Assembly (NCBI RefSeq): GCF_003990335.1
Contig: NZ_CP034683.1
Location: forward strand, 3,331,501 to 3,395,500
DNA: 64,000 nt
Direction of reading: 5' to 3'
From: Rheinheimera mangrovi
GTDB lineage: Bacteria; Pseudomonadota; Gammaproteobacteria; Enterobacterales; Alteromonadaceae
The stretch's first letter is position 1. Every line of letters starts with the position of its first letter. Shown here in pieces: positions 37,535 through 64,000 of the stretch. A program made the translations under genes and the position numbers. The notes under the pieces are model-generated. The model did not search any database. It had not been told where the DNA came from and worked only from the letters and a program-made list of their open reading frames with translations.

Positions 37535-37573
37535 TTACAACAGGCCTTCGCTATAGCGGCTGGCCTGTTGTAA
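37535..37573. other. long stem-loop over the end of the lyase gene
   Basis: TTACAACAGGCC (37535-37546) and GGCCTGTTGTAA (37562-37573) form a perfect 12-bp stem with a 15-base loop that itself contains CGCTATAGCG. It covers the last 13 codons of the lyase gene and lies 5 bases after the convergent Crp/Fnr gene. It lacks a clear T-run, so its termination strength is uncertain. Confidence 0.55.
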
Positions 37574-38407
37574 AAAATCATCCGCCCGCAACCGCTGATT
37601 GATACCATGCAAATCAATCATCTCTGCCTTTAAGGAGTGTGTCTCGCCCTGATGGGCAATATGAGCCAACAGCTGTTCAGCACGTGGGATAAAACTATTC
37701 AGTAAAGCGGCCGGATAAAGTGCAATACGGTAGCCCAACTCAGCTAATTGCCCGCCGCTGTGCACAGGACTGTTACCGCCTTCAACCAGGTTATGAATAA
37801 GCGGGATACGGCCGGCAAACTGACGGCTGATTTGTTGCATCTGTGCCAGTGTCTGTGGCGCTTCGATAAAAATCGCGTCGACCCCTGTCGCCAGATACTG
37901 CTCAGCACGCTCAAGCGCATCCTCAAATCCGTTCACACCCAGTGCATCAGTGCGGGCGAAAATCAAGGTTTCTTCACTGCATCTGGCATCCAGTGCCGCT
38001 TTTAATTTACCCACCATTTCGCTGGCCGGGATCACCTGCTTGCCTTTCATATGACCACAGCGTTTGGGCATCAACTGATCTTCAATCTGCAGTGCCTGAG
38101 CGCCAGCGCGCTCCAGCACTTTGACTGACCTTTGGGTATTGAGCGCATTGCCAAAGCCGGTATCCATATCGACAATCAGCGGCAAATTGACCACTTCGCG
38201 GATCTGGCCGACACAGAGCGTTAGCTCAGCTAAATCCACTAATCCCAAATCGGGTTTACCCAAGCGGCTAAAGGATACACAGGCGCCTGAGACAAAAGCC
38301 GCACTAAAACCAGCCTGTTGCACCAGTTGCGCCGACAGTCCGTCATAAATACCAGGGACTTTCAGCAGATGCTCACTCTGCAACAACTGCTTCAGGGATA
38401 CAGACAT
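37535..38407 (-). CDS. isocitrate lyase/PEP mutase family protein
   Basis: 290 residues. The TIM-barrel signatures of the superfamily are present: VPGIYDGLSAQLVQQAGF, VDMDTGFGN (metal Asp) and the catalytic loop MPKRCGHMKGK with Cys. KRCGH is typical of active carbon-carbon lyases such as 2-methylisocitrate lyase and 2,3-dimethylmalate lyase. It therefore probably cleaves a 2-hydroxy-dicarboxylic acid to pyruvate, glyoxylate or succinate plus a partner. It is the last gene of a seven-gene leftward operon and follows the maleate-isomerase-like gene by six bases, which suggests sequential steps on a maleate/malate-type acid. Confidence 0.85.
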   Translation of the reverse strand: MSVSLKQLLQSEHLLKVPGIYDGLSAQLVQQAGFSAAFVSGACVSFSRLGKPDLGLVDLAELTLCVGQIREVVNLPLIVDMDTGFGNALNTQRSVKVLERAGAQALQIEDQLMPKRCGHMKGKQVIPASEMVGKLKAALDARCSEETLIFARTDALGVNGFEDALERAEQYLATGVDAIFIEAPQTLAQMQQISRQFAGRIPLIHNLVEGGNSPVHSGGQLAELGYRIALYPAALLNSFIPRAEQLLAHIAHQGETHSLKAEMIDLHGINQRLRADDFLQQASRYSEGLL

Positions 38408-38413
38408 GGCGGC

Positions 38414-39190
38414 TTACTCCGGTATAGCAATATGTTCAGACAACAAGGAACCAAAGCCATGAATACGATCGGTAATGCCATTGGAGCGTAACGCATGCCA
38501 GAACGTCAGTGCATTGATAGCCAGCACAGGTTTACCCAGTTCGCATTCCAATTGTGCAGCCAGCTCGGTAAAGTACAGGTTGGTACCGGCCTGCAGGATT
38601 AAATCAACGTCATCACCGTCTACCTCGCGCACTAACTGACGGGTTTTACCAAAGCTCTCATGGGCAATCTCTACCGGACCTTGTGAGCAATGGCCCTGAA
38701 TGCGCACCACTTCGTAGCCAATGTCTTGCATAAAGGTCACCACCTGACGATCGCCGACCGGCATATAAGGAGTGATCACCCCAATCTTTTTCACCCCTGG
38801 GTAGCATTTTAATGCATCCATAATGGCCTGAGCACCGAAGGTTACATTACAGCCACCAATCTCCTGGGCTATGGCATTGTAGCGGGCGAATTCGCGGTCA
38901 GAACGCTGCTTGCCATCCCAAAAGGTTTCTGCGGAATAGCCAAAAATGACGTGATCGGGCCGGCAAGTCAGCGCATCCCGTAATCCTTGTTCAGTCGCTG
39001 CACCAATGGCTTTGACCATTTCGACAAATTGCTGCTCGTTGGTTACTTTAAAAGGCGGAATGACACAACCCCTGGTGGCCAAAACCACACCTTCAGGCCG
39101 CATTTTGTTGTATTCCAGTTCCACAGCTGTATTGGTTGAAGGCACCAGTACAGCGAACTTTTTACGATAGCCATAGTAATCAAGTGTCAT
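38414..39190 (-). CDS. Asp/Glu racemase superfamily protein, maleate isomerase-like
   Basis: 258 residues from MTLDYYGYRKKFAVLVPSTN; an in-frame extension to 39367 is rejected because AAGGA precedes the ATG at 39190. VLVPSTNTAVELEYN, FGYSAETFWDG, KKIGVITPYMPVGD and LQAGTNLYFTELAAQLE fit the maleate cis-trans isomerase/arylmalonate decarboxylase branch, in which two cysteines usually act. Here the first Cys position appears to be replaced (FGYSAE; TNLYF), so the reaction may differ from maleate isomerisation. It overlaps nothing and lies 6 bases from the lyase gene. Confidence 0.8.
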   Translation of the reverse strand: MTLDYYGYRKKFAVLVPSTNTAVELEYNKMRPEGVVLATRGCVIPPFKVTNEQQFVEMVKAIGAATEQGLRDALTCRPDHVIFGYSAETFWDGKQRSDREFARYNAIAQEIGGCNVTFGAQAIMDALKCYPGVKKIGVITPYMPVGDRQVVTFMQDIGYEVVRIQGHCSQGPVEIAHESFGKTRQLVREVDGDDVDLILQAGTNLYFTELAAQLECELGKPVLAINALTFWHALRSNGITDRIHGFGSLLSEHIAIPE

Positions 39191-39194
39191 CAGA

Positions 39195-39959
39195 TTATTC
39201 CTTTGTTTGCATAGCAGCAGTCGATGCGGTGTGCTGCTGTCGGATAAAAGTAAGGGTATGTTGCAGTAATTCATCAATCTGGCTTTGCCTATCCCGTAAC
39301 TTGCTTTCGGTATTGAGGCTGTCAGCGAAGTAACCATACTGCCAGTGATTGGCCGCCGGCATTTCAATAAACAGAGTAGTGGCTGGATATTTGGGCTTGT
39401 TCAGGGCAATTTTTTCCGGCGTTGATTCAGCGTCCAGCGCTGCAGCGATTGACACAGTAGCAATTGGGAGAGAGTGTAAGTCACTGGCAGGATAAGAAGC
39501 CCAGAATATCAGGCTGGCCAGACGGTCGGCATGCGTTTTGGCAAATTCGGCTGCAGCAACCCCCCCCAGCGAATGCCCCACCAGGTGCCAGCTTTTGATC
39601 TGCGGATAAGCTGCCATAACCTCTGCAGCTTGGTCTATGCCCAAAAATGCCGTATTCAAGGGCATCGGCACTATGACAGCAAGATAACCTTCAGCCGCCA
39701 AAGCCCGCATTACAGGCGCAAAAGTGTCTGGCGCTGTTTTGCCTCCCGGATAAAAAATAATGCCTTCACTGGGTTCAGTCGATGCAGGTGTAAAACTCAA
39801 CCAGGGCGACAAACCTACACTGATCCTCTGATCGCTGTGCAAGGCGGCAGCGGTCAGATCTTTTTGATAAGAAAAAGGCACAGACATCCAGGCTGCGACA
39901 CCAGCAAAAAGTAATGCCACCAGGGCAATAAAAACCAAAATCAGTTTTTTGATCATCAC
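39195..39959 (-). CDS. membrane-anchored alpha/beta hydrolase
   Basis: 254 residues. One N-terminal hydrophobic anchor (KKLILVFIALVALLFAGVAA) is followed by an alpha/beta hydrolase domain with the nucleophile elbow VGHSLGGVAAAEFAK and a C-terminal His in ANHWQYGYF. The family includes esterases and thioesterases of unknown substrate (dienelactone-hydrolase-like, PF12695 type). In this island it could de-esterify a side chain such as a methyl or phytyl ester, which is speculation. The start overlaps the MFS gene's stop by 4 bases (ATGA). Confidence 0.8.
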   Translation of the reverse strand: MMIKKLILVFIALVALLFAGVAAWMSVPFSYQKDLTAAALHSDQRISVGLSPWLSFTPASTEPSEGIIFYPGGKTAPDTFAPVMRALAAEGYLAVIVPMPLNTAFLGIDQAAEVMAAYPQIKSWHLVGHSLGGVAAAEFAKTHADRLASLIFWASYPASDLHSLPIATVSIAAALDAESTPEKIALNKPKYPATTLFIEMPAANHWQYGYFADSLNTESKLRDRQSQIDELLQHTLTFIRQQHTASTAAMQTKE

Positions 39960-41275
39960 GAAACTCCTTTTACAGCAGAAGCTGCATACTGCTTATTCTC
40001 TACAACTGTGCCGGTTCTAACCCACCAACTCCAGACAAATACCACAGCGTTTAGTGCGCCAAACACCACAAAAGGTGTCGCCGGGCCAACCACTGAAAAC
40101 AAATAACCACCGCCCGCTGTGCCAACTAAAATGCCTACAGCACCAGCGACACCAAAAAAGCCAATCACAGCCCCCCGGCTGGCGGCAGGTGCCCGCTCTC
40201 CCACCAGCGCCTGACTGGAAACAAAAGCGCTGATTTCCGCTATTCCCATGGCAAAGAGCAGTAGAAACACCCAGCCAGCTGTCGGATCTGTGACCAAAAA
40301 CATGCTGCAATACACCAGTGCTGCTAAACCAGAAGCAATAGTGACGGCCCTGACTCTGCTGACTTTGTCGATAATAAATCCCATCAGCAGCGACCCTATC
40401 ATGGCGCCACTGACCACGGTCAACACGGCAGGGACAGCCAGACTTTGCATGGCCTGACTGGGTGTCATGCCTGAATGTGCTGTGCCATGCTGCACCAGCC
40501 ATAAACCAAGAAAGGCACCGGTAACCGCTAAATCACCACGTGAGATAAAAGCAGCGCCGTAAGATAGAGCTATGGCCGGATCCTTCACCGCAGCACCGCC
40601 TTGCCTAAGCATCTGTCCCACACTGGTTTTCGTTTGCTGATGCACTTTGCCCACCAAAGGCGATAAACCACACCATGCCACTATGGCCGCAACAACCCCC
40701 AAAGCACCGGTCAGTGCAAAAGTTGCTTGCTGAGCTTGAGTTTCGCTAAATCCTCCATCAACAAATAAACGCGGAAAACTGGCCAGAACCGGTGGAATAA
40801 AAGCACCTAACGTAGCGACAAAACCTTGCAAGCCATTGGCTTTGCCTCTGGTGCTGTTTTCGGTGTAGTCGGCTATTACTGTCACCATCATGCCCAGCAT
40901 AGCCGCCGAGCCTATGGCCACAATCACACGATAGAACACCAATTCAGTCACTGAGCTGGCTGTACCATAGAGCACAAAACCCAGAGCACAAACCAGTAAA
41001 CCCGTGGCATAAATGATACGGCGGCCGAACTTGTCGGCCAGCGCGCCAAACACCGCCAGTAGCAGGATAAAGACAGTTTCCTGAATGGCACCTAACAAGC
41101 CGGTCAGTTTGCCTTGCTGTTCCAGAGGGATCCCCATCACCTGCAGCAGACCTGGTTGCAAAATAGCCATGGCCCCTGCATAACCGGAAGATAACAAAGC
41201 AACAAACAAATAGCACAACAGGTTCCGCCGTTTCACGCCATCAACTAATGAAATGCCTAGCATTCTCTTGTTCAT
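39956..41275 (-). CDS. MFS transporter (island copy 1)
   Basis: 439 residues with about 12 hydrophobic segments and the MFS loop motif GALADKFGRR between helices 2 and 3. It resembles the transporter at 54770-56116: both share a KDPxIALxYGxAFISR segment in the central loop and RGAVIGxF near helix 10. It probably imports the pathway substrate or exports an intermediate. It lies in the seven-gene operon between an RCCR-like gene and the hydrolase. Confidence 0.88.
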   Translation of the reverse strand: MNKRMLGISLVDGVKRRNLLCYLFVALLSSGYAGAMAILQPGLLQVMGIPLEQQGKLTGLLGAIQETVFILLLAVFGALADKFGRRIIYATGLLVCALGFVLYGTASSVTELVFYRVIVAIGSAAMLGMMVTVIADYTENSTRGKANGLQGFVATLGAFIPPVLASFPRLFVDGGFSETQAQQATFALTGALGVVAAIVAWCGLSPLVGKVHQQTKTSVGQMLRQGGAAVKDPAIALSYGAAFISRGDLAVTGAFLGLWLVQHGTAHSGMTPSQAMQSLAVPAVLTVVSGAMIGSLLMGFIIDKVSRVRAVTIASGLAALVYCSMFLVTDPTAGWVFLLLFAMGIAEISAFVSSQALVGERAPAASRGAVIGFFGVAGAVGILVGTAGGGYLFSVVGPATPFVVFGALNAVVFVWSWWVRTGTVVENKQYAASAVKGVS

Positions 41276-41298
41276 TTGCTCCCCCTGACCTTTGGTTG

Positions 41299-42117
41299 TT
41301 AATAACGCTTTTGTTGCTTAATTTGCTCACTGCCCATACGTAGGTCCACCATACGGGCCACTTCTTCTTCACCAAAGACTTTCACCGCCAGTTTGTTCAT
41401 TGGATCACGGCGATAACACATTTCGCGAATGGTATGGTCGTGCTGCTGTAACAGGGTCCGCTCTGCTTCAGGCACAGCAGTAGCCTGATCCAGCCAGCCT
41501 AACCAGCGGTCCACCATTTCATGCAGGTAGGTTTCAAAGATATCGATGTTGGCGTGATTCAGCTCCCCCATCAGACTTTGGGTGGCCGGATTATTGAGTG
41601 CTCGCATATACTGGCCATGACTGACAGACCAGTGGAAGTTTGGATTGCTGCGCAGTTTCATATACCAGTCGTTGACTTCATCATTGAAGTACTTATCCAG
41701 ATAATTGATGTCTGTCAGCAGGTTACGACGCGGGGTGTAGTCGCAGTAACAAAACAGGTGCGGCACAGTACCAAACACAATCACCAGATGGGGCACATCT
41801 GTTTGTTGGTCCAGAAATGCGGTGGTATTCATATCGAGAATACTGGCCTGACGATTACCAATCCAGGAATTGACTAACCACTCCACGCCCTGGCCACTCC
41901 AGGCCTTATAGCTGCCTTCCCATTCCCCATTAGGTGAGGTGTAATACTCGCGATCAAAAGTAGAAGGATGCTGTTCCAGATGCGGAAAACGGGCGGCGAT
42001 TTTATCTTTTAACGCCGTCAAAATACCCCAGCAACGTCGCCAGTACTCAGTCACATCGACATTCGGGTTTTCAGCCAGAAATTCATCCAGCGTTTTGGTT
42101 TCTTTATTCACTGACAT
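41299..42117 (-). CDS. RCCR-like (red chlorophyll catabolite reductase family) protein, copy 1
   Basis: 272 residues. Aligning it by eye with the plant enzyme as I recall it gives a series of matching blocks in order: VEWLVNSWI, VPHLVIVF, CDYTPRRNLLTDINYLDKYF, NNPATQSL, RWLGWL and HDHTIREMCYRRDP with KVFGEEEVARMV. The plant enzyme reduces a linear tetrapyrrole using ferredoxin and shares its fold with bilin reductases. The acidic residue in the plant NFVVEL motif is Val here. Two related copies lie at 48057 and 58627. Start: ATG at 42117 (GTG at 42120 possible), both behind GGAG. Confidence 0.72.
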   Translation of the reverse strand: MSVNKETKTLDEFLAENPNVDVTEYWRRCWGILTALKDKIAARFPHLEQHPSTFDREYYTSPNGEWEGSYKAWSGQGVEWLVNSWIGNRQASILDMNTTAFLDQQTDVPHLVIVFGTVPHLFCYCDYTPRRNLLTDINYLDKYFNDEVNDWYMKLRSNPNFHWSVSHGQYMRALNNPATQSLMGELNHANIDIFETYLHEMVDRWLGWLDQATAVPEAERTLLQQHDHTIREMCYRRDPMNKLAVKVFGEEEVARMVDLRMGSEQIKQQKRY

Positions 42118-42133
42118 CACAATCTACTCCGCG

Positions 42134-42922
42134 TTACAAGCCATAGCGGCTGAATTTATCTTGAGGTTTGTTGACCAGACCACGCAGCATGCGCAAGCTG
42201 ATCTTTAAGCTGGATAACCAGGCAATTTTGTGGCCCGATTTATTGCATTTGAGTATTTCTGCGGCCAGATAAGGCGCAACAGTTTCAGGTTCATCACAAA
42301 TCAGGTTGGCGAAATGACGGCGGCGCTGAAAATTAGCCAGGTCAGCTTTTGCTTCGCGTACCACACCTTCGGTAATGATCATGCCTGGACGGATCCTGCC
42401 GACTATCACGCCACTGCCAGCCAGCTCTTTCGCCAGTGCAGTACTGAAATAATCCAGCGATCTTTTAGTGCTGCCATAGACCCCCATACCGGCAAAATAT
42501 TCTCCGTCTGAACCACCACCGAGCATATTGAAAATTTTGCCATAGCCCTGAGCCAGCATCAGTACAGCAGCCACCCGACAACATTGCATGGTGCCCAAAA
42601 TGTTGGTTGTTACCATAGTCTCGAGGTCTTGTTGCGAAGTTTGTAAAATACTGTTGGTCGTTTTTGCCAAACCTGCGTTATTAATCCAGATATCTATGCT
42701 GCCCATCTGCTGCAGAGCAAAATCACGCAAAGATTCCACCTGAGCCAGCTCACGGATATTGCAGGACGTGGCATAAAAACGTTCGCCACCTTTGCTCTTT
42801 GCCAGAGCCTGAAGCTCAGCAGAGTTCTGACCACAAACCAGCACCTGATGGCCTTGTTGCCAGAATTCTTCAGCCAACGCCCGTCCTATACCTTTAGTGC
42901 CCCCTGTAATAACAATGTTCAT
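42134..42922 (-). CDS. short-chain dehydrogenase resembling chlorophyll b reductase (NYC1/NOL), copy 1
   Basis: 262 residues. Classical SDR features: ITGGTKGIGRALAEEF (nucleotide site), IWINNAG, and the YGSTK catalytic Tyr/Lys. Beyond the general family it shares blocks with plant NYC1/NOL as I recall them: GSIDIWINNAG, KIFNMLGGGSDG, MGVYGSTK, RPGMIITEGV and ICDEPETVAPYL. Plant NYC1/NOL reduces the 7-formyl of chlorophyll b. Here it may reduce a carbonyl on a tetrapyrrole-type substrate. The ATG follows directly after the stop of the upstream epimerase gene (TAAATG). Confidence 0.8.
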   Translation of the reverse strand: MNIVITGGTKGIGRALAEEFWQQGHQVLVCGQNSAELQALAKSKGGERFYATSCNIRELAQVESLRDFALQQMGSIDIWINNAGLAKTTNSILQTSQQDLETMVTTNILGTMQCCRVAAVLMLAQGYGKIFNMLGGGSDGEYFAGMGVYGSTKRSLDYFSTALAKELAGSGVIVGRIRPGMIITEGVVREAKADLANFQRRRHFANLICDEPETVAPYLAAEILKCNKSGHKIAWLSSLKISLRMLRGLVNKPQDKFSRYGL

Positions 42923-43786
42923 TTAGGACTCCAGCCATTTTGTATTGGGATCGCTCTGCTGCACGCTATAGCCAGTGGCAGCAATTTTATCAGCGGATAT
43001 TTTACGGTTGGGTGCTTTGATTTGCCCCAGATAGCTTAATTCCGGCCATTGATGGGCACGACAAATAGCCGAGAACACCTCTTGATTCGAAGGAGGAACC
43101 CTGCTGTTGTCGCAGACATTAAACACACCATTGAGGTTCTGTTTGATGCTGTGCAGCACAGCCTGTACCACATCGGCAAAATGAATAGCGTAAAGCGGCG
43201 CATCTGCAGAGAACACTGTTTTACCACCAAAATAATCCAGTGCCATTTTTACCCGGGTTGGAAAATCCATATCGCCCGGAGCGCCATACATATCCGGGAA
43301 ACGCAGCACACAGCCCTCTGGGCTTTGCAGTACAAAACGCTCTGCGGCCTGATAGTATTTCGATGAAGGTTCTTCGTGATTGCCGGTCGGGGTCAATTCA
43401 GTAATAGGATCATCCCCAGGGCCACCATCACCATAAACAGAAAAAGACGACAGAAAAATCACCCGGGGACAAGCAGCTGCAGCATGCTGACAACTTAATT
43501 CCAGCACCTGATGGTAATGCTGCTCGCGCTCTTCTTTGCTACGGGTTTTACGCACATCGGGAGCTACGGTAACTATCACCAGATCAGCGCCTTCAGCGGC
43601 AGCAGCTACTTTTTCGCCCTCCTGCCCTTTCAATACATAAACCTTGTCAACCAGCTCAGATAAAGCCGACACCTTTTCAGCCGTTGTGGTCGTACCGCTG
43701 ACATTGTGCCCTAAGGCTTTCAGTTCACTGGCCAGGGCTTTGCCAATATGGCCTAAACCTAAAATCAGAATATTCATCGCTAGCAT
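42923..43786 (-). CDS. NAD(P)-dependent epimerase/dehydratase-like (extended SDR)
   Basis: 287 residues. The N-terminal ILGLGHIGKALASELKALG nucleotide motif and SSFSVYGDGG with downstream YYQAAE (Tyr-x3-Lys-like position altered to YYQAAE) indicate an extended SDR of the YeeZ-type group. The substrate is unknown. It is the first gene of the seven-gene leftward operon, and a GntR-type operator lies 13-30 bases before its start. A second in-frame ATG at 43777 is equally possible. Confidence 0.75.
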   Translation of the reverse strand: MLAMNILILGLGHIGKALASELKALGHNVSGTTTTAEKVSALSELVDKVYVLKGQEGEKVAAAAEGADLVIVTVAPDVRKTRSKEEREQHYHQVLELSCQHAAAACPRVIFLSSFSVYGDGGPGDDPITELTPTGNHEEPSSKYYQAAERFVLQSPEGCVLRFPDMYGAPGDMDFPTRVKMALDYFGGKTVFSADAPLYAIHFADVVQAVLHSIKQNLNGVFNVCDNSRVPPSNQEVFSAICRAHQWPELSYLGQIKAPNRKISADKIAATGYSVQQSDPNTKWLES

Positions 43787-43798
43787 CCAACCTCATAA

Positions 43799-43816
43799 TG
43801 TATTATTGTTATATCA
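43799..43816 (-). promoter_or_regulatory. GntR-type operator, site 1
   Basis: Minus strand TGATATAACAATAATACA. It lies between the divergent epimerase and VOC genes and can control both the seven-gene leftward operon and the two-gene rightward unit. It differs from site 2 at one base. Confidence 0.72.
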
Positions 43817-43846
43817 TATATACTTTAACAAGCGATACAAGTCCTT

Positions 43847-44317
43847 ATGACAGTTTTAGCGCACACTGAATTAAAAAATCTTATTTTGGGTTTGCAGCAT
43901 GTTGGTTTTGTCGTTGCCGATCTTGAGGCCGCACTACAGCAGTGGCAGCAGCTGTATGATGTCGACAGCAGCACCATACGCCGTGTTCCGGCCACCAAGG
44001 CAGAGCAAGATTGTTCGCCGGTGTTATTCGCCTTTTTTACCGTTGCCGGTCAGGAGATTGAATTGATCCAGCCAAAAGCTGACCCTTATCTGACACTGAT
44101 GTTAGCCATGCAAAGTGGCCAGGCCGGCATCAATCATGTCGCATGGCGGGTGTCTGACTTAAGTGCCGCACTTCAGCTGCTGGCACATCGAGGTGTTTAT
44201 CCTGGTTATGTCACTCCCAACGGACTGGTACAGTTTGGCCAGAAAAAAATGGTGTATCTCGATCCAGCCACCACGGGTGGACAATTAATAGAGCTGATAG
44301 AAATAAATGAATATTAA
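43847..44317 (+). CDS. VOC/glyoxalase family protein
   Basis: 156 residues. Paired beta-alpha-beta3 modules supply metal ligands at LQHVGFVV (His), EIELIQP (Glu), INHVAWRV (His) and LIELIEI (Glu), the H-E-H-E set of glyoxalase I and methylmalonyl-CoA epimerase. It may epimerise, isomerise or cleave a pathway intermediate. The closest appearance is to the epimerase/glyoxalase branch rather than extradiol dioxygenases, which are longer. It overlaps the next gene by 11 bases. Confidence 0.82.
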   Translation: MTVLAHTELKNLILGLQHVGFVVADLEAALQQWQQLYDVDSSTIRRVPATKAEQDCSPVLFAFFTVAGQEIELIQPKADPYLTLMLAMQSGQAGINHVAWRVSDLSAALQLLAHRGVYPGYVTPNGLVQFGQKKMVYLDPATTGGQLIELIEINEY

Positions 44318-45881: not shown

Positions 45882-45899
45882 GCTTTCCTCCTTAATTAT

Positions 45900-45917
45900 T
45901 GATATAACATTAATACA
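45900..45917 (+). promoter_or_regulatory. GntR-type operator, site 2
   Basis: TGATATAACATTAATACA, 17 of 18 identical to site 1, in the 95-base spacer between SDR copy 2 and the divergent barrel gene at 45977. Confidence 0.72.
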
Positions 45918-45976
45918 AACAAACTCAGCATAATGCAAGACAACATCAGCACTTTCTTAATAGGAGCAACACGAAG

Positions 45977-46567: not shown

Positions 46568-46589
46568 CTGGTGTTTCTGGCTAGAAAAC

Positions 46590-53430: not shown

Positions 53431-53487
53431 TTTAGGGCAGTGCTTAATGCCAATCTATGCAGCCAAACACAAGAACGAAGGGCAATC

Positions 53488-56116: not shown

Positions 56117-56119
56117 AAG

Positions 56120-56821: not shown

Positions 56822-56855
56822 AGCAAATTCCTCTTAAAGTACCGTATTGACATAA

Positions 56856-56873: not shown

Positions 56874-56929
56874 TTGTGTCTATATCTACAGACTTTTTAT
56901 GCACAGCGATCACTAAAGGCGGGAAAATA

Positions 56930-58630
56930 ATGAAAGTTGCAGCAGCGCAGTTTGCCACCACAAATGATGTGGCGGCAAACCTAATCAAGTGCGTATCGAT
57001 AGTAGCAGAAGCCGCTAAAAAACAACCTGATCTTATTGTGCTACCGGAATTTTGTAATCACAACTCCTGGTATGACAATGCAGAGCACTGCTATCAGGTT
57101 TCGGTGGATTTGGAAGGGGAATTTTTAGCTGCCATAGCGCAGGCAGCGCAGCAGGCTGGTGCTTATGTCGTGATTAACTGTACGGTCAGACGGCCAGACA
57201 ACAAGGTTACGGGCACCAGTTTATTGTATTCACCAACAGGCGAACTATTAGCTCAAGCAGATAAGCAGGTATTGATTGGCCACGAGAATGACTTTTTACA
57301 GCGAGCCACGCAGCCAGGTCCAATAGTCGACACCCCTTTTGGCAAACTGGCGCTTTATGCCTGTATGGATGGAGTGATCAATGAAACGCCACGCTGCCTG
57401 GCATTACGCGGCGCCCAGCTGCTGTGTAACAGTCTGAACTCCTTTGCCATAGACGAAGGTAATCTGCATATCCCTGTGCGGGCAGCAGAAAATAAAGTCT
57501 TTGTCATTGCAGCTAATAAAGTGGGCCCGCTGATCCCAGAGGTGATGCTGGAACCTGTGTCTGCCGCTATTAATATCCCAGTGCAATTTTTAAGCGGTGC
57601 CGGCGACAGCCAAATTGTGGCACCGGATGGCACAGTGCTGGCCATAGCGGGTCATAGTGAAGAAATTATCTATGCCGACATAGACTTGTCACAGGCCACA
57701 GACAAAAATCGGCCGGATGGCACAGATGTATTCGCAGATCGTCGCATCGACTTATACCAGCCTTTAGTGCAAGACCCGGTCACACAAAAATTACCCAGCT
57801 TTACTGGCGCAGACAGCGTGATCGCAGCAGCAGCCAGTGTGACTGGCAGCGGCGCTTTGGCTATAGCTTCTGCCGTAGCAGCGGTAGAAAGCCTGCAGGC
57901 TGATAAAGCACGGCTGATCTGCCTGCCTGAGCTTTGTGCCGTATCAACGGACATGTCCGTTGGCGAAGCTGCTGAAACATCAGCAGCTTTGGTAAAAGAG
58001 TTACAAAAGGTACTGCTGGCCGACACTTACATTGCTACAACTATCATAGATACAGAACAAGGCGCCAGGCATTTGGCTGTGCTGATCAGCCAGCAAGGTA
58101 TTCTCTATCAACAAGGACAGGTGCACCGCAGCCAGCGCCATAGCGGCCTGACTCAGGCCAATAGCTTTAAAGTTTGCCACACCGCGCACGGTAAAGTGGC
58201 TGTGCTGTGTGAAGACGATGCGATTTATCCGGAAAGTTTCCGTTTACTGGCGTTACAAGGTGTTGAAATAGTCTTGGTGCCGCTGGCATTACAAGAGTTG
58301 TGGCTGGTCAGTACAGGACTGGTAGAACGGGCCGCCGAAAACCGCATTAATCTGATTGCAGCGGATCGCCACTGCGCCAATAACCTGATTTGCTCTTTAC
58401 AGCAGGATTTTACCCTGATGACGCAGTGGCAGACACGCCAGTTTGACGGCTTGCTCAGTGCGCCGGACATAGTGCGCCAGCCAGACAGTGCTTTATTGAT
58501 CGCGACAATTCATCCACGCGCCGCAGCCAACAAAGTGTGCTCACACCGCACTGATTTACTGGCCAACCGCCCATGGCAATTTATGCAGCCGGTGGTCAGC
58601 CCAAGCCATCCAGAAGGAACCCGAACATGA
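56930..58630 (+). CDS. tandem nitrilase-superfamily amidohydrolase
   Basis: 566 residues, twice the usual size. The first half (about 1-265) has the full Glu-Lys-Cys triad: LPEF (E40), ADKQVLIGHEN (K112) and YACMDGV (C145). The second half repeats the fold with LPELCAV and VAVLCEDDA, but the lysine position seems to be occupied by Arg in the VHRSQRHSG segment, so it may be inactive or structural. Such enzymes hydrolyse amides, imide-derived amides or nitriles. The start is ATG at 56930 behind GGGAAAATA; an in-frame 56876 start is rejected. It begins a six-gene or longer rightward unit and overlaps the next start (ATGA). Confidence 0.82.
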   Translation: MKVAAAQFATTNDVAANLIKCVSIVAEAAKKQPDLIVLPEFCNHNSWYDNAEHCYQVSVDLEGEFLAAIAQAAQQAGAYVVINCTVRRPDNKVTGTSLLYSPTGELLAQADKQVLIGHENDFLQRATQPGPIVDTPFGKLALYACMDGVINETPRCLALRGAQLLCNSLNSFAIDEGNLHIPVRAAENKVFVIAANKVGPLIPEVMLEPVSAAINIPVQFLSGAGDSQIVAPDGTVLAIAGHSEEIIYADIDLSQATDKNRPDGTDVFADRRIDLYQPLVQDPVTQKLPSFTGADSVIAAAASVTGSGALAIASAVAAVESLQADKARLICLPELCAVSTDMSVGEAAETSAALVKELQKVLLADTYIATTIIDTEQGARHLAVLISQQGILYQQGQVHRSQRHSGLTQANSFKVCHTAHGKVAVLCEDDAIYPESFRLLALQGVEIVLVPLALQELWLVSTGLVERAAENRINLIAADRHCANNLICSLQQDFTLMTQWQTRQFDGLLSAPDIVRQPDSALLIATIHPRAAANKVCSHRTDLLANRPWQFMQPVVSPSHPEGTRT

Positions 58631-59361
58631 GCACCTCATTACCACAACAATTAAGTGATACCACACTGGACTCGATAGTCAGCCATTTTGGTTTAACTGA
58701 ACGCCATGCTGCTGAAGGCGGCCCCTACATGGTGCTATCAAGCCAGCTGCCTATGGTGCAAGGGCCTGTGGGTTTTGTCCGGGTATTCCATGGAGATCCT
58801 TTAGCCATGCTGGTGACCTGTTCTATTGTGGTGCCTGCTATGCAGCTGGATTCACATATGATCTTCGCCTTTACCCAAAGCCATAGCGCCGTACCTCATT
58901 TTACACTCGACTCAGTCAAAGCAGGCGACCACTACTCGTTTCACCTTGATCTGATCCCTCGAGTCGATTTAGCCGAGCATACCGGCTACATGAACCAGGT
59001 ATTCAAGCCACTCAGTGGAGTGTATCAGCAGGCCGAAGCCATCGAAGGCCTGGCGCCTGCGCACGTATCCCCAATCCAACGTGCCACCATGTCCCCTTGG
59101 ATGCTGGTACACCGTGCCAATGAAACAGCTTTTCGCCAAATCGGACACTACGTACAACAGTATCTGCAGCACTGGCAAAAGTTGGTCGCCGACACTGTCG
59201 CGTCTCCTGTCAGTGAAAGCAGTCTGCAGCAGCGTGACAAAGCCAACAGGGCCGCCATCTTCTCCACGGAGATTGATCCGGTCTGGCATAGGATTGATGG
59301 CTTAATCGGCCTGGCCAGCGGGCAGCAATTACGGGCTTTACTACAAGGTAACACTCTTTAG
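58627..59361 (+). CDS. RCCR-like (red chlorophyll catabolite reductase family) protein, copy 3
   Basis: 244 residues, the most divergent of the three copies. Matching blocks include VPHFTLDSV (residues 89-97), HLDLIPRVDLAEHTGYMNQVF, SPWMLVHRANE and LQQRDKANRAAIFSTEIDPV. At the position of the plant acidic residue in NFVVEL this copy has Asp95, whereas copies 1 and 2 have Val and Ala. Copy 3 may thus be the catalytic one or act on a different intermediate. Its ATG overlaps the nitrilase stop. Confidence 0.68.
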   Translation: MSTSLPQQLSDTTLDSIVSHFGLTERHAAEGGPYMVLSSQLPMVQGPVGFVRVFHGDPLAMLVTCSIVVPAMQLDSHMIFAFTQSHSAVPHFTLDSVKAGDHYSFHLDLIPRVDLAEHTGYMNQVFKPLSGVYQQAEAIEGLAPAHVSPIQRATMSPWMLVHRANETAFRQIGHYVQQYLQHWQKLVADTVASPVSESSLQQRDKANRAAIFSTEIDPVWHRIDGLIGLASGQQLRALLQGNTL

Positions 59362-59393
59362 TTAACGGGCCAGCTGGCCTTGCGAGGATAATG

Positions 59394-60665
59394 ATGAAAT
59401 TAACAGCAGAGCAGTTTGTCGAACGGATGTCGGCTGCTGAAAAAGTCCGGGCCGCCAAAGTTGAAGCGGTATTACCGGCGTTAAAAGAAGTAGCTCTTCA
59501 GGTTGATCGTGATGGTAGTTTTTATCCGGGCCATGTCAAAACCCTGAGTGAGGCTGGCTTACTTGGCCTTATTATTCCGGAACAATACGGTGGTCTCGGC
59601 GGCGGACTGCGTGATCTGGCAGCGGCCACTTTCGCGATAGGCAGTGTTTGCCCTTCCACTGCGCTGGCCTATTTTTTCCATTGCTCGTCCGCTTCACGTG
59701 GTTTGTTAGCACTGGAAGCAATTGAAGCAGGTTTGTTTACTGAACAGGAAATTCCACTGGTCAAAGCCTTTGCCGAAAAAGTACTGTATAGCATGGGACG
59801 CGATGGTCAATGGCTGGCTAATTTCGCCAGCGAAACCGTAAAATCGCAAACTGCAGCTATTACCATCAGCACGAAAGCAGTCAAAGTGGCCGGTGGCTAC
59901 CTGTTGTCCGGCATAAAAAGTTTTGGTTGTGCCACAGGGGTTGCTGACCGTTATCTGGTGACAGCCAGCCTGGAAGGCTACAACGACGCCAGTGGTCTTT
60001 GTACTTTCTTTATTGACCGCGACGCAGAAGGCGTCAGCGAGCGGCAAAAATGGGATGCGCTGGGCATGCGCGGTACCGCCACTCATGGTTTGATCCTCAA
60101 AGATGTCTTTGTGGCTGACCACGACGCCCTGACAGTACCTGCCGCCTTTACCCGCTGTATGCAAATGAGCCGCGGCAGTTTTGTCGGTAACCAGCTCGCT
60201 GGTATAGCCGTGTATTTAGGCCAGGCCGTCACCATCTACCGCGACACTCTGAAGATCCTCACCAGCAGTAAATTTGGTGACAGCGACGCCACTATCGCCA
60301 GCTCTCCTATGCATCAGCAACTGATCGGCGAAATGATGGCGGATCTGGAAACCGCCACCCTTTGGTTACGTCGCCAGTTAGAGCTGGAAACGGCAGAGCC
60401 AGAAATTTTACCAAAACACGAAGTCGTTAAACGCTGGCGCTTATGCAAAGGCCAGGTTGCAGAATATGGCTTTAAACTGGCGGTAAATGCACTGAAATGC
60501 CTCGGCACTACCGGCACTAACAACCAGAGCCCAGCGGCCAAAGGTTTACGCGACATGGCAATGGCGCTGGTGCAAGCTTTCCCTGCGGAACGGGGTCGCC
60601 TGATGGCCGCACAAATGGAAACCGATGGTTACGAACAAGCTCAGTTTGGTGTAAAAGCACCATGA
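59394..60665 (+). CDS. acyl-CoA dehydrogenase-like flavoprotein
   Basis: About 423 residues (ATG at 59391 or 59394, behind GAGGATA). The N-terminal helices and LGLIIPEQYGGLGGG, the middle beta domain with GMRGTATHGL and the C-terminal helical bundle fit the acyl-CoA dehydrogenase fold. The usual C-terminal EGT signature is replaced by LVQAFPAERGRL, so it may be an oxidase or a DszC/HpaB-like monooxygenase rather than a true dehydrogenase. Electron transfer flavoprotein (etfAB) and a flavin reductase nearby are alternative partners. Confidence 0.78.
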   Translation: MKLTAEQFVERMSAAEKVRAAKVEAVLPALKEVALQVDRDGSFYPGHVKTLSEAGLLGLIIPEQYGGLGGGLRDLAAATFAIGSVCPSTALAYFFHCSSASRGLLALEAIEAGLFTEQEIPLVKAFAEKVLYSMGRDGQWLANFASETVKSQTAAITISTKAVKVAGGYLLSGIKSFGCATGVADRYLVTASLEGYNDASGLCTFFIDRDAEGVSERQKWDALGMRGTATHGLILKDVFVADHDALTVPAAFTRCMQMSRGSFVGNQLAGIAVYLGQAVTIYRDTLKILTSSKFGDSDATIASSPMHQQLIGEMMADLETATLWLRRQLELETAEPEILPKHEVVKRWRLCKGQVAEYGFKLAVNALKCLGTTGTNNQSPAAKGLRDMAMALVQAFPAERGRLMAAQMETDGYEQAQFGVKAP

Positions 60666-62104
60666 GTACCTTACCTGTTTTTCAAAACTACATAGCCGGA
60701 CACTGGTGTGCGACAGAAACCACAACTGTCGCTCTGACCAACCCGAATAATGCCAAACTGACAGGCTATCAGGCCAGCAGCAGCAAAATTCAGGCAGAAC
60801 AAGCACTGGAAGCAGCCAGTAAGGCTTTTGATGCAAACGACTGGTCTTGCCTTGACCCCGAACGACGCGCTGCCTACCTGTTACGAATAGCACAGCTGCT
60901 GGAGCAGAAAAAAGAACAGATAGCACAACTGGATTCGCTGCAAAACGGCGTCGTGATCCAGTTAACCCGTCAGGTCGCAAGCATATGCGCTGCAGCTTTT
61001 CGTGCATCTGCAGACATACTGCGAAGCCATGGATCTGTGAGATATATGCCGGGTAACTATAGTGATATTGCCATACAACGCCTTCCACTAGGTGTGGCCG
61101 CCATTATTACTCCCTGGAACGCACCTTCAGGCATCGCCTGCCATAAAATTGCCAGTGCGTTGGCTGCAGGCTGTTGTGTCATTTTTAAGCCTTCAGAATG
61201 GGCAGCCGGCTCAGCCCAACTGATCGCAGAAGCTATTGCTGAAGCTGATTTACCTCCTGGCGTATTTCAGTTGCTGCATGGCAACGCAGCAGTAGGCGCC
61301 TTGTTGGTCGATGACAACAGAGTGGCCTGTGTATCCTTTACCGGCGGAGCCCAGGGCGGCGCAGCCATAGGCCGCAGCTGTGGGGAACAGATAAAACCGG
61401 TTCAACTGGAACTGGGCGGAAACAACCCTTTAGTGGTGCTGAAAAGCGCACAACTTGATCAGGCCGCTGCAGCTATAGTCACAGGAATGACAACCATGAA
61501 TGCACAGTGGTGCCGCGCTTTGGGCCGTATTCTGGTGCATCAGGAGATAAGTTCGGCATTGCTGGAGAAAGTGCTCAGCCGACTCACACAGGTGGTGCTG
61601 GGCAATTCACTGGATGAACAATCCCAGATGGGCCCATTGGTGCATAAAGCCCATTGGCAGCATATTACCCAAGCTATTGAGTCTTATCGTCAACTGGGTG
61701 CGCAGGTGCTGCAGCCTGTTAAAGTTGCAGATCCCAGCTTAGCTGATACCGGCTACTTCTTATCCCCTACTCTTGTACTGGGATTAGCGCCAGAACAAAC
61801 CCTGGAAGAAATTTTTGGCCCTGTCGCCTGCTGGCATACCTTTGACAGCGAAAGCGAAGCCATAGCACTGGCCAACCAAACCCCTTATGGTTTGGCTGCT
61901 TATGTGTTTGGAGAAGAAAAACAAGCCTGGCAAGTTGCCAATAAAATCCGCTCGGGCATGGTGAAAATTAATGCCGTCAGCCTGTTTAACCTAAACCCTA
62001 TGGCTCCGAGACCGGCCTGGGGCAAAAGTGGTTTGGGTGACGAAGGTGCGCTGGAAACCTTCAGCTTCTTCCAGGGCACCAGGGTGATAGGAGTGGCAGG
62101 ATGA
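60662..62104 (+). CDS. aldehyde dehydrogenase (copy 1)
   Basis: 480 residues. NAD(P)+ aldehyde dehydrogenase motifs: ITPWNAPSGIACHKI, FKPSEWAAGSAQL, SFTGGAQGGAAIG, ELGGNNPLVVL (catalytic Glu) and the Cys in MNAQWCRALGR, with EEIFGPV near the C terminus. The usual GQxC is NAQWC, a modest change. It oxidises an aldehyde from the preceding steps to an acid. Its ATG overlaps the stop of the flavoprotein gene. Confidence 0.93.
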   Translation: MSTLPVFQNYIAGHWCATETTTVALTNPNNAKLTGYQASSSKIQAEQALEAASKAFDANDWSCLDPERRAAYLLRIAQLLEQKKEQIAQLDSLQNGVVIQLTRQVASICAAAFRASADILRSHGSVRYMPGNYSDIAIQRLPLGVAAIITPWNAPSGIACHKIASALAAGCCVIFKPSEWAAGSAQLIAEAIAEADLPPGVFQLLHGNAAVGALLVDDNRVACVSFTGGAQGGAAIGRSCGEQIKPVQLELGGNNPLVVLKSAQLDQAAAAIVTGMTTMNAQWCRALGRILVHQEISSALLEKVLSRLTQVVLGNSLDEQSQMGPLVHKAHWQHITQAIESYRQLGAQVLQPVKVADPSLADTGYFLSPTLVLGLAPEQTLEEIFGPVACWHTFDSESEAIALANQTPYGLAAYVFGEEKQAWQVANKIRSGMVKINAVSLFNLNPMAPRPAWGKSGLGDEGALETFSFFQGTRVIGVAG

Positions 62105-63540
62105 TTCGCGGCGAATTACTGATCAACGGCCAGTCCTGCCAGGCCTCAAATGGCGGCTACTTTGCGGTGTTAGCCCCGGCGGATGGCCAGGTAATAGGAC
62201 AAGCTGCTATGGCTACAGCTGTGGATGTAGACAAAGCCGTGACACTGGCCTGTGAAGGATTTACACAGTGGTCTGCACTGGCGCCTTCGCGCCGGGAAGC
62301 TTGCCTGCTGAAAGCGGCGGATCTGCTGGAACAACAAGGCATGGAGCGTCTGCTTGATCTGCTGATTGACGAAAGCGGCTCTACTATTACCAAAGCGCGC
62401 AATGAAATACGCTACACAGTGGACTTATTGCGCACAGCTGCCGGCGAAGCCCGTCGCCTGTATGGCGATACCTTTCCAAACGACAACCCAAACCGGATTT
62501 CGATGGTGTTTCGCCAGCCAATTGGTGTAGTTGCGGTAGTGTCACCTTACAATGCTCCACTGTCATTACTGTGCAAAATGAGTGCTTTTCCACTGGCAGC
62601 CGGCAATGCCATAGTGATTAAACCATCCGAAGAAACGCCGCTTATCGCGCTGGAGTACGGCAAAATTTTGCTGGAAGCCGGTATTCCGGCCAAAGCTCTG
62701 GCGGTATTAACAGGTTTTGGTGCTGAATGCGGCGCCGCTTTAACCGACCATCCAAAAGTCAACTGTATTGCCTTGACCGGCTCCACCGCCACTGGCCAAA
62801 AAGTGGGCGCTGTTGCCGCCAAACGTATGGTGAAAACCCAATTGGAACTGGGTGGTAAAAGTGCAGTGCTGGTACTCAATGATGTCGACCCGGTCAAAGC
62901 GGCTCATATAGTGGCACAGGGTATTTTTACCCACAGCGGCCAAATTTGCATGGCCAACAGCAGAGCTGTAGTGGAAGACGCAATTTTTGACGATTTTGTC
63001 AGTGCGCTCAAGCAAGCAGCAGAAGCGCTGTGGCTGGGTGATTTACGCGATGAAAAAACCCAGTATGGCCCTTTGATCAACCAAAATGCACTGAACAAAG
63101 TTCAGCATTATGTCGATGAAGCCATAGCACAAGGCGCCAGCGTACTGACAGGCGGCAAACCCCATCAGGGGCTGGTGTTCCAACCAACAGTGTTACTGCA
63201 TACACCTGCGACATGCGGCGCCTGGCGCGAAGAGTTGTTTGGCCCTGTGCTCTGTGTGGTCAGAGCCACAGATTTAGCCGATGGTATCGATAAGGTAAAT
63301 GACAGCGAGTACGGCCTGTCGTCTGCGGTACTGACCACCAACCTCAATGCAGCCCTGCAGGCCGCTAAACAAATCAACGCAGGCTCAGTGCATATAGGTA
63401 TGCACGCCTTCCAGAGTAATGCGCTGGCCCCTATTGGTGGCAGCAAACTCTCGGGTATAGGCCGAAGCGGTGGCGCCTACTCCACGGAAGAATTTACCGA
63501 GCTGAAGTGGATCAGTATGGAGCTGAACGAAACGCTATGA
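62101..63540 (+). CDS. aldehyde dehydrogenase (copy 2)
   Basis: 479 residues. Motifs VVSPYNAPLSLLCKM, IKPSEETPLIALEY, LTGSTATGQKVG, ELGGKSAVLVL (Glu) and HSGQICMANS (catalytic Cys) are canonical. It is clearly diverged from copy 1, so the two probably act on different aldehydes. Start and stop overlap the neighbouring genes by 4 bases each (ATGA), indicating one tightly packed operon. Confidence 0.95.
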   Translation: MIRGELLINGQSCQASNGGYFAVLAPADGQVIGQAAMATAVDVDKAVTLACEGFTQWSALAPSRREACLLKAADLLEQQGMERLLDLLIDESGSTITKARNEIRYTVDLLRTAAGEARRLYGDTFPNDNPNRISMVFRQPIGVVAVVSPYNAPLSLLCKMSAFPLAAGNAIVIKPSEETPLIALEYGKILLEAGIPAKALAVLTGFGAECGAALTDHPKVNCIALTGSTATGQKVGAVAAKRMVKTQLELGGKSAVLVLNDVDPVKAAHIVAQGIFTHSGQICMANSRAVVEDAIFDDFVSALKQAAEALWLGDLRDEKTQYGPLINQNALNKVQHYVDEAIAQGASVLTGGKPHQGLVFQPTVLLHTPATCGAWREELFGPVLCVVRATDLADGIDKVNDSEYGLSSAVLTTNLNAALQAAKQINAGSVHIGMHAFQSNALAPIGGSKLSGIGRSGGAYSTEEFTELKWISMELNETL

Positions 63541-64000
63541 GCAGCCCTGCCACTATCCGCCGCGGCTATGCCGACATGGCATCAGGCCAATTACATTACC
63601 GCTACTGCGGTAACAGCAATGCACCTGTTCTGGTCTTGCTGCACCAGGCACCCAGCCACAGTGTGATGTACGAAGCAATGATGCCGCTGCTGTGCAAACA
63701 GTTTTTCTGTATTGCGCCAGATTTGCCTGGCTGCGGACAATCAGATGCACTGAACGACTACAGTATCGAGGCGATTGCCGCCAGCATCGCCGCCACACTA
63801 AATGCTGAGTTTAAGCTGGCAGAGCGGCCTTTGTCCCTGTTTGGCCATCATACCGGCGCCAGCGTGGCGGCTGAACTGGTGGCCTATCACTGGCCGCAAG
63901 CAGTGGCTTTGGTGTTATCAGGGCCACCTTTGTTGTCGGCGGCACAACAGCTGCAATTACAGCGCTTCAACCTGCCAGCCAAAGCCGAAGACTCGGGGCA
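63537..64000 (+). CDS. alpha/beta hydrolase, N-terminal part (runs off the window)
   Basis: The frame starts ATGAGC at 63537, overlapping the previous stop, and continues past 64000; about 154 residues are visible. VLVLLHQAPSHSVMYEAMMP, IAPDLPGCGQSD and the elbow GHHTGASVAAEL identify the fold. The elbow has His where the nucleophilic Ser normally sits (GxSxG), so it may be non-hydrolytic or use a different mechanism; comparable GHHTG forms do exist in the superfamily as I recall. The catalytic Asp and His are beyond the edge. Confidence 0.85.
   Translation, partial: MSSPATIRRGYADMASGQLHYRYCGNSNAPVLVLLHQAPSHSVMYEAMMPLLCKQFFCIAPDLPGCGQSDALNDYSIEAIAASIAATLNAEFKLAERPLSLFGHHTGASVAAELVAYHWPQAVALVLSGPPLLSAAQQLQLQRFNLPAKAEDSG

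Follow-up and report, generated by a model that had tools for sequence, protein, structure and literature searches.

Results

Gene content of the locus

The window analyzed here, a stretch of 64,000 nucleotides of the Rheinheimera mangrovi genome (C1:3331501-3395500 in a 4.63-Mb genome assembled as the single contig C1), contains part of a gene island with three proteins related to red chlorophyll catabolite (RCC) reductase, termed RCCR1, RCCR2, and RCCR3, a Rieske oxygenase, two short-chain dehydrogenases (SDRs), a predicted electron donor, and a double barrel protein. Conservation was scored in 36 RCCR loci, obtained by scanning genome contigs with an RCCR2 profile and taking stretches of up to 10 kb on each side, several of them truncated; open reading frames with at least 30% identity and at least 60% coverage were each given to the best island protein. 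The loci are 4.3 to 20.8 kb long, and all counts are hence lower bounds. The principal genes are as follows.

34811..36585, minus strand: etfAB, a second electron transfer flavoprotein (Pfam ETF and ETF_alpha), inside the inserted block
36829..37530, plus strand: Crp-family regulator (cNMP_binding and HTH_Crp_2; homologues in 11/36 RCCR loci)
41299..42120, minus strand: RCCR1, RCC-reductase family (PF06405, 50.3 bits, cut-off 24.9; own clade, support 1.0)
42134..42922, minus strand: SDR1, short-chain dehydrogenase (adh_short, 134 bits)
45075..45938 (probable start near 45884), minus strand: SDR2, short-chain dehydrogenase (adh_short, 139 bits; 20/36 loci)
46650..47870, minus strand: VanA-type Rieske oxygenase, candidate ring opener (Rieske 79.8 bits and VanA_C 84.5 bits, both over cut-off)
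48057..48872, plus strand: RCCR2, RCC-reductase family (PF06405, 71.8 bits, cut-off 24.9)
48899..50284, plus strand: rubredoxin–rubredoxin reductase fusion, predicted electron donor (Rubredoxin, Pyr_redox_2, and Rbx_binding over cut-off)
50302..51285, plus strand: double calycin-type beta-barrel by predicted fold, predicted pigment or intermediate binder
58573..59361 (true start near 58627), plus strand: RCCR3, divergent member of the RCCR/bilin-reductase superfamily by predicted fold

Extent and insertion site of the island

The sequence-only reading had confined the island to 37535..64000, a span that proved too narrow. In G234, a genome of the same genus, window positions 29852-34729 are matched at 93.8%, and a match to L051:1130-3249 (84%) begins 153 bp further on. 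Because the flanks are joined across these 153 bp in G234, 70.2 kb is extra in R. mangrovi, extending from about window position 34730, and thus including etfAB and the Crp-family regulator, to about C1:3436430, some 41 kb beyond the window end. The GC content of the island is 50.5%, and that of the flanks is 46.5% and 46.1%. The island block is likewise absent from another relative, G227, in which this chromosomal site is occupied by another insert, roughly 11 kb long. The site, near dnaK, looks like an insertion hotspot. By reading, the G227 insert (L059:6931-17953) holds TonB receptor, ABC-transporter, and glycosidase-like genes. The inserted, conserved gene island is real and larger than first reported, and it was probably acquired horizontally.

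Five of 196 family genomes gave RCC reductase matches, R. mangrovi among them, and the seven other same-genus genomes of this sample gave none; PF06405 was matched in one of 398 phylum-sample genomes, which was R. mangrovi itself. The other etfAB copy of the genome, at C1:2237331, is 71% identical to the island copy, and the 20 other genus genomes searched gave one match each.

Three proteins of the RCCR superfamily

RCCR1 and RCCR2 exceed the Pfam cut-off for PF06405, and RCCR2 also matches Arabidopsis RCCR (3agb; E 5.6e-12, residues 37-256). Of 2891 candidates, 342 are related to RCCR2 at E ≤ 0.001. RCCR3, at 17.9-18.2 bits against 24.9, falls under the cut-off and is therefore not filed under that family; it was placed in the RCCR/bilin-reductase superfamily by its fold. 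An AlphaFold2 model of RCCR3 (pLDDT 94.2, built on a 15-sequence alignment) matched RCCR first (2zxk, E 2e-11), followed by HY2, PebA, PebB, PcyA, and PebS. RCCRs and bilin reductases account for 43 of its 45 PDB matches at E ≤ 0.001 and for all of the first 42 ranks; the remaining two are chains of chloroplast FtsHi motor complexes, and coproporphyrinogen oxidase ranks next. The three RCCR-like copies noticed from the sequence alone are thus upheld, two by the PF06405 cut-off and the third by its predicted fold, for which the comparison with solved structures placed plant RCCR at the top.

In a midpoint-rooted tree of 51 sequences, the RCCR3 and RCCR1 clades each have support 1.0, and RCCR1 arises within RCCR2. 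We compared the sites of Glu154 and Asp291, which we take to be the functional acidic residues of plant RCCR, with the plant numbering anchored on the F218V mutant chains; a literature search on RCCR residues found no paper. The Glu154 site is occupied by Ala in 30/30 RCCR2, Val or Ile in 6/6 RCCR1, and Asp in 15/15 RCCR3 sequences, and a C-terminal Asp is kept in the Asp291 region in all 51. RCCR3, the most distant paralogue in sequence, is alone in having an acidic pair like that of the plant enzyme. The three proteins may act on different bonds.

Rieske oxygenase, SDRs, electron donor, and barrel protein

The oxygenase encoded beside RCCR2 had been assigned to a "VanA/pheophorbide oxygenase type." The VanA part of this assignment stands on the Rieske and VanA_C domains, whereas the pheophorbide oxygenase (PaO) part does not: the PaO domain PF08417 was not matched up to E 10 in this protein and was found nowhere else in the genome, and the protein is, by that test, not of the PaO family. 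Among 14 control genomes, the same model was matched in three, one of them over cut-off. In the PDB, the Rieske protein comes closest to SxtDIOX/SxtT and methylxanthine demethylases, and its best NCBIfam match is a methylsterol oxygenase, far under cut-off. It may nevertheless work like PaO. Among the 32 RCCR carriers, a PaO-domain match lies elsewhere in six genomes and is over cut-off in three, either on a contig other than that of the RCCR genes or about 450 kb away from them. The three PaO-domain Rieske proteins over cut-off are encoded in L062, L063, and L064, and two of them adjoin an acyl-CoA dehydrogenase-like gene.

The proposal of two NYC1/NOL-like reductases was left unconfirmed. 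Of the 223 NCBIfam models for SDR1 and the 217 for SDR2, the 25 listed in each case are all generic SDR models under cut-off, with NYC1/NOL not among them. A homologue search with SDR2 gave 7110 matches among 8000 scored candidates, and none of the 120 relatives listed, most of them nameless and the others generically named, bears the name chlorophyll b reductase. Both proteins were therefore retained as apparently generic SDRs.

The rubredoxin–reductase fusion was confirmed by its Pfam domains and is counted in three of the 36 loci (L004, L005, and L007). The calycin-like barrel was likewise borne out by fold for the double barrel protein, whose sequence profile had no match in the PDB at E ≤ 1. 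Its best fold matches are BFA1 and DUF3598, which are not known as pigment binders; S-type bilin lyase and UnaG resemble it at lower Z, and the outer-membrane barrel Pla ranks with nitrobindins in the same search.

Conservation of the upper gene set

The double barrel recurs in 30 and the Rieske oxygenase in 29 of the 36 loci, which is more than chance, and RCCR3 homologues are present in 14. Gammaproteobacteria repeatedly have RCCR2, Rieske, SDR2, and barrel genes side by side, and the set is partly kept in Anaerolineae and one deltaproteobacterium. The named hosts are Alkalimonas, Alteromonadaceae, Aestuariicella, Paraferrimonas, Halioglobus and relatives, Spongiibacteraceae, Pseudohongiella, Nevskiaceae, Anaerolineae, an Oligoflexaceae bacterium, and a deltaproteobacterium; Pseudohalioglobus and Parahaliea belong to the Halieaceae. 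RCCR2, RCCR3, Rieske, and barrel genes are all present in L014 of Parahaliea maris and in L009 of Pseudohalioglobus sediminis. Two pairs of genome handles may be duplicates: G015 equals G197 by gene places, and G110 and G196 may be one metagenome-assembled genome (MAG). Both pairs are inside the Stay-Green set of 34 described below, and G015/G197 is also inside the 33-handle set of gene places.

The Anaerolineae loci (L015, L018, L019, L020, L027, and L037) and the proteobacterial L024 hold further recurring proteins with, by reading, tryptophan-rich barrel-like openings. They form three families, and one searched member of each gave no Pfam match.

Chlorophyllase-family genes near RCCR genes

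Past the window, the island encodes one protein of the Chlorophyllase family.

L049:7269-8309: Chlorophyllase-family hydrolase (PF07224, 46.1 bits, cut-off 26)

By reading, this protein has a lipoprotein-like signal at its start. Its motif is GHSFG instead of GHSRGG, which we take to be the chlorophyllase motif, and we therefore call it chlorophyllase-family rather than chlorophyllase. PF07224 was searched in 43 genomes, namely the 32 RCCR carriers and 11 others (nine without RCCR in the family scan, plus G227 and G234). Over cut-off, there were 28 matches in 19 of the 32 carriers. Thirteen of these matches, in 11 carriers, lie on the same contig as an over-cut-off RCCR gene and within 50 kb of it, where at most 1.06 would be expected at random (Poisson 1e-10); within 20 kb, there are nine matches in eight genomes against 0.42 expected.

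The clearest case is a Nevskiaceae MAG (L065), in which a near full-length PF07224 match (140 bits) with the GHSRGG motif lies about 1.6 kb from RCCR1. Here, Chlorophyllase, maleate-isomerase-like, SDR2, RCCR1, SDR1, and epimerase-like genes form a same-strand run. Beyond it lie MFS1, a gene for a FAD monooxygenase, and another chlorophyllase-like gene (42.9 bits). A further alpha/beta hydrolase family, chlorophyllase-like at first sight, adjoins RCCR2 in 27/36 loci; the one member tested matched at E 0.0098, under cut-off, and this family was hence not counted as chlorophyllase. It is the location near RCCR genes, not the presence of PF07224, that stands out.

The downstream half of the island

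The part of the island past the window (L049-L051) encodes two isochorismatase-type amidases, a FAD monooxygenase, a second maleate-isomerase-like protein, four CoA transferases III, an HMG-CoA-lyase-like protein, alpha/beta hydrolases, a TonB receptor, acyl-CoA dehydrogenases, a MaoC hydratase, a CitE-like lyase, three PuuE-like proteins, an amidase, two MmgE/PrpD proteins, a LeuCD-like hydratase, and a second lyase of the phosphoenolpyruvate (PEP) mutase type. Most of these identities come from domain tests, and three of the four CoA transferases were identified by reading. The best PDB match of the amidase IsoCh2 is the isochorismatase-family hydrolase 4l07, and that of PuuE2 is PuuE allantoinase. 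The LeuCD-like hydratase exceeds two NCBIfam cut-offs (TIGR02087, 180.6 over 109; NF001614, 530.6 over 385), and its small subunit is placed over cut-off in the LeuD/DmdB type. The MaoC and CitE proteins are nearest to RipB and RipC in NCBIfam, under the equivalog cut-offs. We take 4l07, as well as 4fq5, the PDB match of a maleate-isomerase-like protein of the window, to be nicotine-pathway enzymes, and cyclic-imide hydrolases are PuuE-like.

By these family assignments, the lower half appears to fit alkylmaleates derived from the maleimides of pyrrole rings. The part of PMC7318184 drawn on here discusses methyl ethyl maleimide and hematinic acid among the products of chlorophyll oxidation; its authors describe hematinic acid as found in leaves and maleimides as undetected.

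IsoCh2-PuuE2-PuuE3 lies inside four gammaproteobacterial RCCR loci (L009, L010, L011, and L025) at 63-82% identity, and LeuC-like genes lie near RCCR2 in L004, L006, L019, L023, and L024. A PuuE2 orthologue (at least 79% identity) is present in 22 of 196 family genomes, including the five with RCCR, which are all the RCCR carriers of that sample. In the 36 loci, which extend no further than 10 kb from RCCR2, the count is zero for ACAD2, MaoC, CitE, PuuE1, both PrpD, and the TonB receptor. In the two RCCR-less genomes looked at (L055-L058), PuuE2 adjoins homologues of an island methyltransferase and of an unassigned 273-aa protein, with a TonB receptor nearby and CoA transferase, MaoC, and CitE genes within about 20 kb. 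No homologues of the window RCCR, Rieske, and barrel proteins were found on these fetched stretches. The tie between the lower set and tetrapyrroles is thus one that we infer.

Remaining genes of the window

The other genes of the window are listed below.

37535..38407, minus strand: PEP mutase/methylisocitrate lyase family, predicted alkylmalate lyase (PF13714, 138 bits)
38414..39367 (true start probably near 39190), minus strand: maleate isomerase/Asp-Glu racemase superfamily (PDB 4fq5, E 8.6e-8)
39195..39959, minus strand: alpha/beta hydrolase (Abhydrolase_5, 122 bits)
39956..41275, minus strand: major facilitator superfamily (MFS) transporter 1 (MFS_1, 158 bits)
42923..43786, minus strand: NAD-dependent epimerase-like protein, a frequent RCCR1 neighbor (Epimerase, 45.5 bits; 5/36 loci)
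43847..44317, plus strand: glyoxalase-superfamily protein (Glyoxalase_4, 57 bits)
44307..44993, plus strand: 228-aa protein (no Pfam match to E 10; homologues in L004, 45%, and L022, 29%)
45977..46567, plus strand: 196-aa protein, a barrel in the sequence-only reading (no Pfam match to E 10; 17/36 loci)
51306..51803, plus strand: flavin reductase (Flavin_Reduct, 148 bits; 8/36 loci)
51916..52563, minus strand: glutathione S-transferase-like protein (GST_N_3, 65 bits; 9/36 loci)
52571..53233, minus strand: membrane protein by reading (no Pfam match at E ≤ 0.01; 12/36 loci)
53440..54255, plus strand: GntR/UTRA regulator (GntR and UTRA over cut-off)
54281..54721, plus strand: DUF2141 protein (107 bits)
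54770..56116, minus strand: MFS transporter 2 (MFS_1, 140 bits; 16/36 loci)
56120..56821, minus strand: 233-aa membrane protein by reading (no Pfam match at E ≤ 0.01; homologues in L004, L026, and L028)
56876..58630, plus strand: carbon-nitrogen hydrolase (CN_hydrolase, 167 bits, two matched stretches; 12/36 loci)
59391..60665, plus strand: acyl-CoA dehydrogenase-superfamily protein by Pfam, possible two-component flavin monooxygenase (12/36 loci, mostly adjoining RCCR3)
60662..62104, plus strand: aldehyde dehydrogenase 1 (Aldedh, 408 bits)
62101..63540, plus strand: aldehyde dehydrogenase 2 (Aldedh, 498 bits)
63507..64000, plus strand: alpha/beta hydrolase running past the window end into L049 (Abhydrolase_1, 50 bits)

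The transporters and small-acid enzymes suspected from the sequence are present, the MFS carriers by Pfam and the small-acid enzymes by Pfam and PDB matches. In the PDB, the lyase at 37535..38407 is closest to 1zlp, the petal death protein of carnation (E 1.6e-50); 2,3-dimethylmalate lyase (3fa3) is also listed, and the lyase is under the prpB equivalog cut-off. For the maleate-isomerase-like protein, Amdase is just under cut-off, and the hypothetical protein 4ix1 is also a best PDB match; its best segments are 80-92% identical near the RCCR genes of L004, L026, L033-L036, L043, and L046. A homologue of MFS transporter 1 lies near RCCR1 in L014, L017, L022, L044, L045, and L047. Aldehyde dehydrogenase 2 has 61-66% identity to proteins in seven RCCR loci and 28% in an eighth.

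Origin of the substrate

Reaction-centre genes were matched in none of the 32 RCCR carriers, and heme oxygenase was unmatched in 30 of them, R. mangrovi included, and matched in two; controls gave matches for both, and incompleteness may affect several carriers, which are MAGs. Self-turnover of bacteriochlorophyll and an origin of the substrate from the cell's own heme were both rejected on these counts, and uptake of the substrate from the surroundings is most likely. Chlorophyll derivatives are favored as this substrate by the esterases and the Rieske oxygenase, and the RCCR/bilin-reductase fold family and the barrel are equally fit for bilins.

Discussion

A proposed route of tetrapyrrole degradation

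We consider it probable, with moderate confidence, that the inserted island lets a bacterium without reaction-centre genes take up chlorophyll-derived tetrapyrroles and degrade them to small carboxylic acids, with both the substrate and the order of reactions inferred. In the proposed route, the phytyl and methyl esters would be cleaved off by the chlorophyllase-family protein, which is lipoprotein-like, together with other hydrolases, and the chlorin would be imported by the TonB receptor and MFS carriers. The Rieske oxygenase, with electrons from the rubredoxin reductase, would open the ring, after which the methine bridges of the open chain would be reduced one after another by RCCR1-3 while the barrel protein holds the pigment. 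Flavin-dependent oxygenases could then split the chain to single rings, to be oxidized to substituted maleimides, from which PuuE-like imidases and isochorismatase-type amidases would yield alkylmaleates. These may be hydrated by the DmdAB/LeuCD-like enzyme and cleaved by a PEP-mutase-type lyase, or alternatively isomerized, CoA-activated, and then hydrated and split by the RipB/RipC-like enzymes; in either case, the end products would be pyruvate-level products and short acids.

The idea of tetrapyrrole breakdown, first raised from the sequence, is backed by the chlorophyllase-family genes near RCCR, the maleimide-suited downstream half, and the lack of reaction-centre matches and scarcity of heme-oxygenase matches in carriers. 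Its one-to-one match with the plant order of reactions gained no support, given a Rieske oxygenase without a PaO domain, apparently generic SDRs, RCCR1 and RCCR2 without an acid at the Glu154 site, and no Stay-Green (PF12638) match in 34 genome handles, a search in which no control gave a match either.

The missing PaO domain, the residues at the Glu154 site, and the Stay-Green count (no positive control) also weigh against the proposed route, as do the best fold matches of the barrel and several features of the Chlorophyllase link. The island protein at L049:7269-8309 covers only PF07224 positions 26-131 of 301, also matches PAF acetylhydrolase, and has the divergent motif noted above. Apart from two full-length cases, the PF07224 matches span no more than about a third of the model. 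Besides the full-length pair, five island-type proteins, short or long, were run in hmmscan, and four of them have additional, weaker matches to PAF acetylhydrolase or related folds. The family is not specific to carriers: of the 11 other genomes, PF07224 is matched in 10 at E ≤ 1e-4 and is over cut-off in four. One of the full-length cases (G216 C65) sits among ordinary housekeeping genes, and its contig carries no RCCR; 21 of the 32 carriers have no over-cut-off PF07224 match within 50 kb of an RCCR gene. For the lower half, the counterpart is a PuuE2 orthologue in 17 of 191 family genomes without RCCR, implying that the lower set can stand alone and may serve another substrate.

Alternative explanations

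The solved top fold relatives of RCCR3 act on linear tetrapyrroles, and the barrel resembles, at lower Z, S-type bilin lyase and UnaG. Together with the missing PaO domain and the Stay-Green count (without a positive control), this could describe an island that leaves chlorophyll rings closed and degrades linear tetrapyrroles that are already open, such as phycobilins, biliverdin, or bilirubin. We nevertheless regard this, the main rival reading, as unlikely. The repeated Chlorophyllase-family neighbors and the other esterases fit chlorophyll, phycobilins having no phytol ester; a Rieske oxygenase adjoining RCCR recalls PaO and RCCR; and with heme oxygenase unmatched in 30/32 carriers, self-made biliverdin is improbable.

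The RCCR-less genomes with PuuE2, two of which lack the window RCCR, Rieske, and barrel genes on the fetched stretches, would also be explained if two unrelated catabolic sets had been joined, an upper one for tetrapyrroles and a lower one for imides or dicarboxylates from some other substrate. This, too, seems improbable in view of the PuuE2 orthologue in 5/5 RCCR carriers of the family sample, the IsoCh2-PuuE2-PuuE3 genes inside four RCCR loci, and the LeuC-like genes near RCCR2 in five. Recruitment of the RCCR-like proteins to reduce a non-tetrapyrrole heterocycle or aromatic, which the lost acid in RCCR1 and RCCR2 and the nearest relatives of the Rieske protein would allow, is very improbable, as the RCCR3 model finds RCCRs and bilin reductases almost exclusively, with coproporphyrinogen oxidase next, and the Chlorophyllase link and maleimide-type half would have to be coincidences.

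Returning to chlorophyll-derived tetrapyrroles, a bolder version of our proposal is that a mobile island encodes complete aerobic chlorophyll mineralization, comprising ester removal, uptake, Rieske opening, three-step bilin reduction, conversion to maleimides, and entry of all rings into central metabolism via dialkylmaleate hydratases and lyases. We put this forward tentatively, as a possibility somewhat short of even.

Comparison with known systems

Chlorophyll breakdown beyond the opened ring is known mainly from plants. With the plant PaO/phyllobilin pathway, which comprises PaO, RCCR, NYC1/NOL, and chlorophyllase or pheophytinase, the island shares the RCCR family, an adjoining Rieske oxygenase, a Chlorophyllase-family protein, and SDRs. 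However, it has no PaO domain and no Stay-Green match, its SDRs are not assigned to NYC1/NOL, and it differs further in its three RCCR-type paralogues, its candidate genes onward to small acids, and its nature as an inserted bacterial island.

The ferredoxin-dependent bilin reductases (PcyA, PebA/B/S, and HY2) and the pre-PcyA proteins of heterotrophic bacteria have the same fold as the island RCCRs, and a further likeness is the Asp of RCCR3 at the site aligned with plant Glu154. According to the portion of PMC10151467 used here, pre-1 and pre-3 genes sit with heme oxygenase, BBAG, and V4R genes. In contrast, the R. mangrovi genome has no heme-oxygenase match, and RCCR1 and RCCR2 score as RCC reductases. 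Stay-Green Mg-dechelatases, reported from non-photosynthetic bacteria including Anaerolineae as single enzymes whose bacterial role is unknown (Obata 2019, as related in a passage of PMC8531759), are likewise a plant chlorophyll-breakdown family in such bacteria, whereas here we describe a gene island, and Stay-Green was not matched in any of the 34 genome handles (no positive control).

The lower half recalls two further routes. Nicotinate fermentation employs dimethylmaleate hydratase (DmdAB) and dimethylmalate lyase, and itaconate is degraded by the Rip pathway. The island shares with them a LeuD/DmdB-type small subunit over cut-off, PEP-mutase-type lyases, and RipB/RipC-like proteins, but its predicted substrates are dialkylmaleates from pyrrole rings, and its RipB-, RipC-, and prpB-like proteins are under the equivalog cut-offs.

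RCCR-like sequences have been noted before, in bacteria as an outgroup (Rockwell and others 2023, in the part of PMC10151467 consulted) and in cyanobacteria (Thomas and others 2009, in an excerpt of PMC2716323). Automatic database names already read red chlorophyll catabolite reductase in Paraferrimonas, Halioglobus, and Parahaliea. In the open-licence literature, we found no published account of such an island, and bacterial chlorophyll degraders and their genes are hardly described there; searching it for bacterial chlorophyll degradation led to work on phytanic acid in humans and apes.

On the scale given in the section of PMC7318184 drawn on here, 10^12 kg of chlorophyll is made and broken down each year. 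An island with named candidate enzymes would make bacterial chlorophyll degradation testable and supply marker genes for metagenomes. It also bears on the question of a bacterial origin of the RCCR of land plants. If complete mineralization is true, heterotrophs can eat the commonest pigment on Earth.

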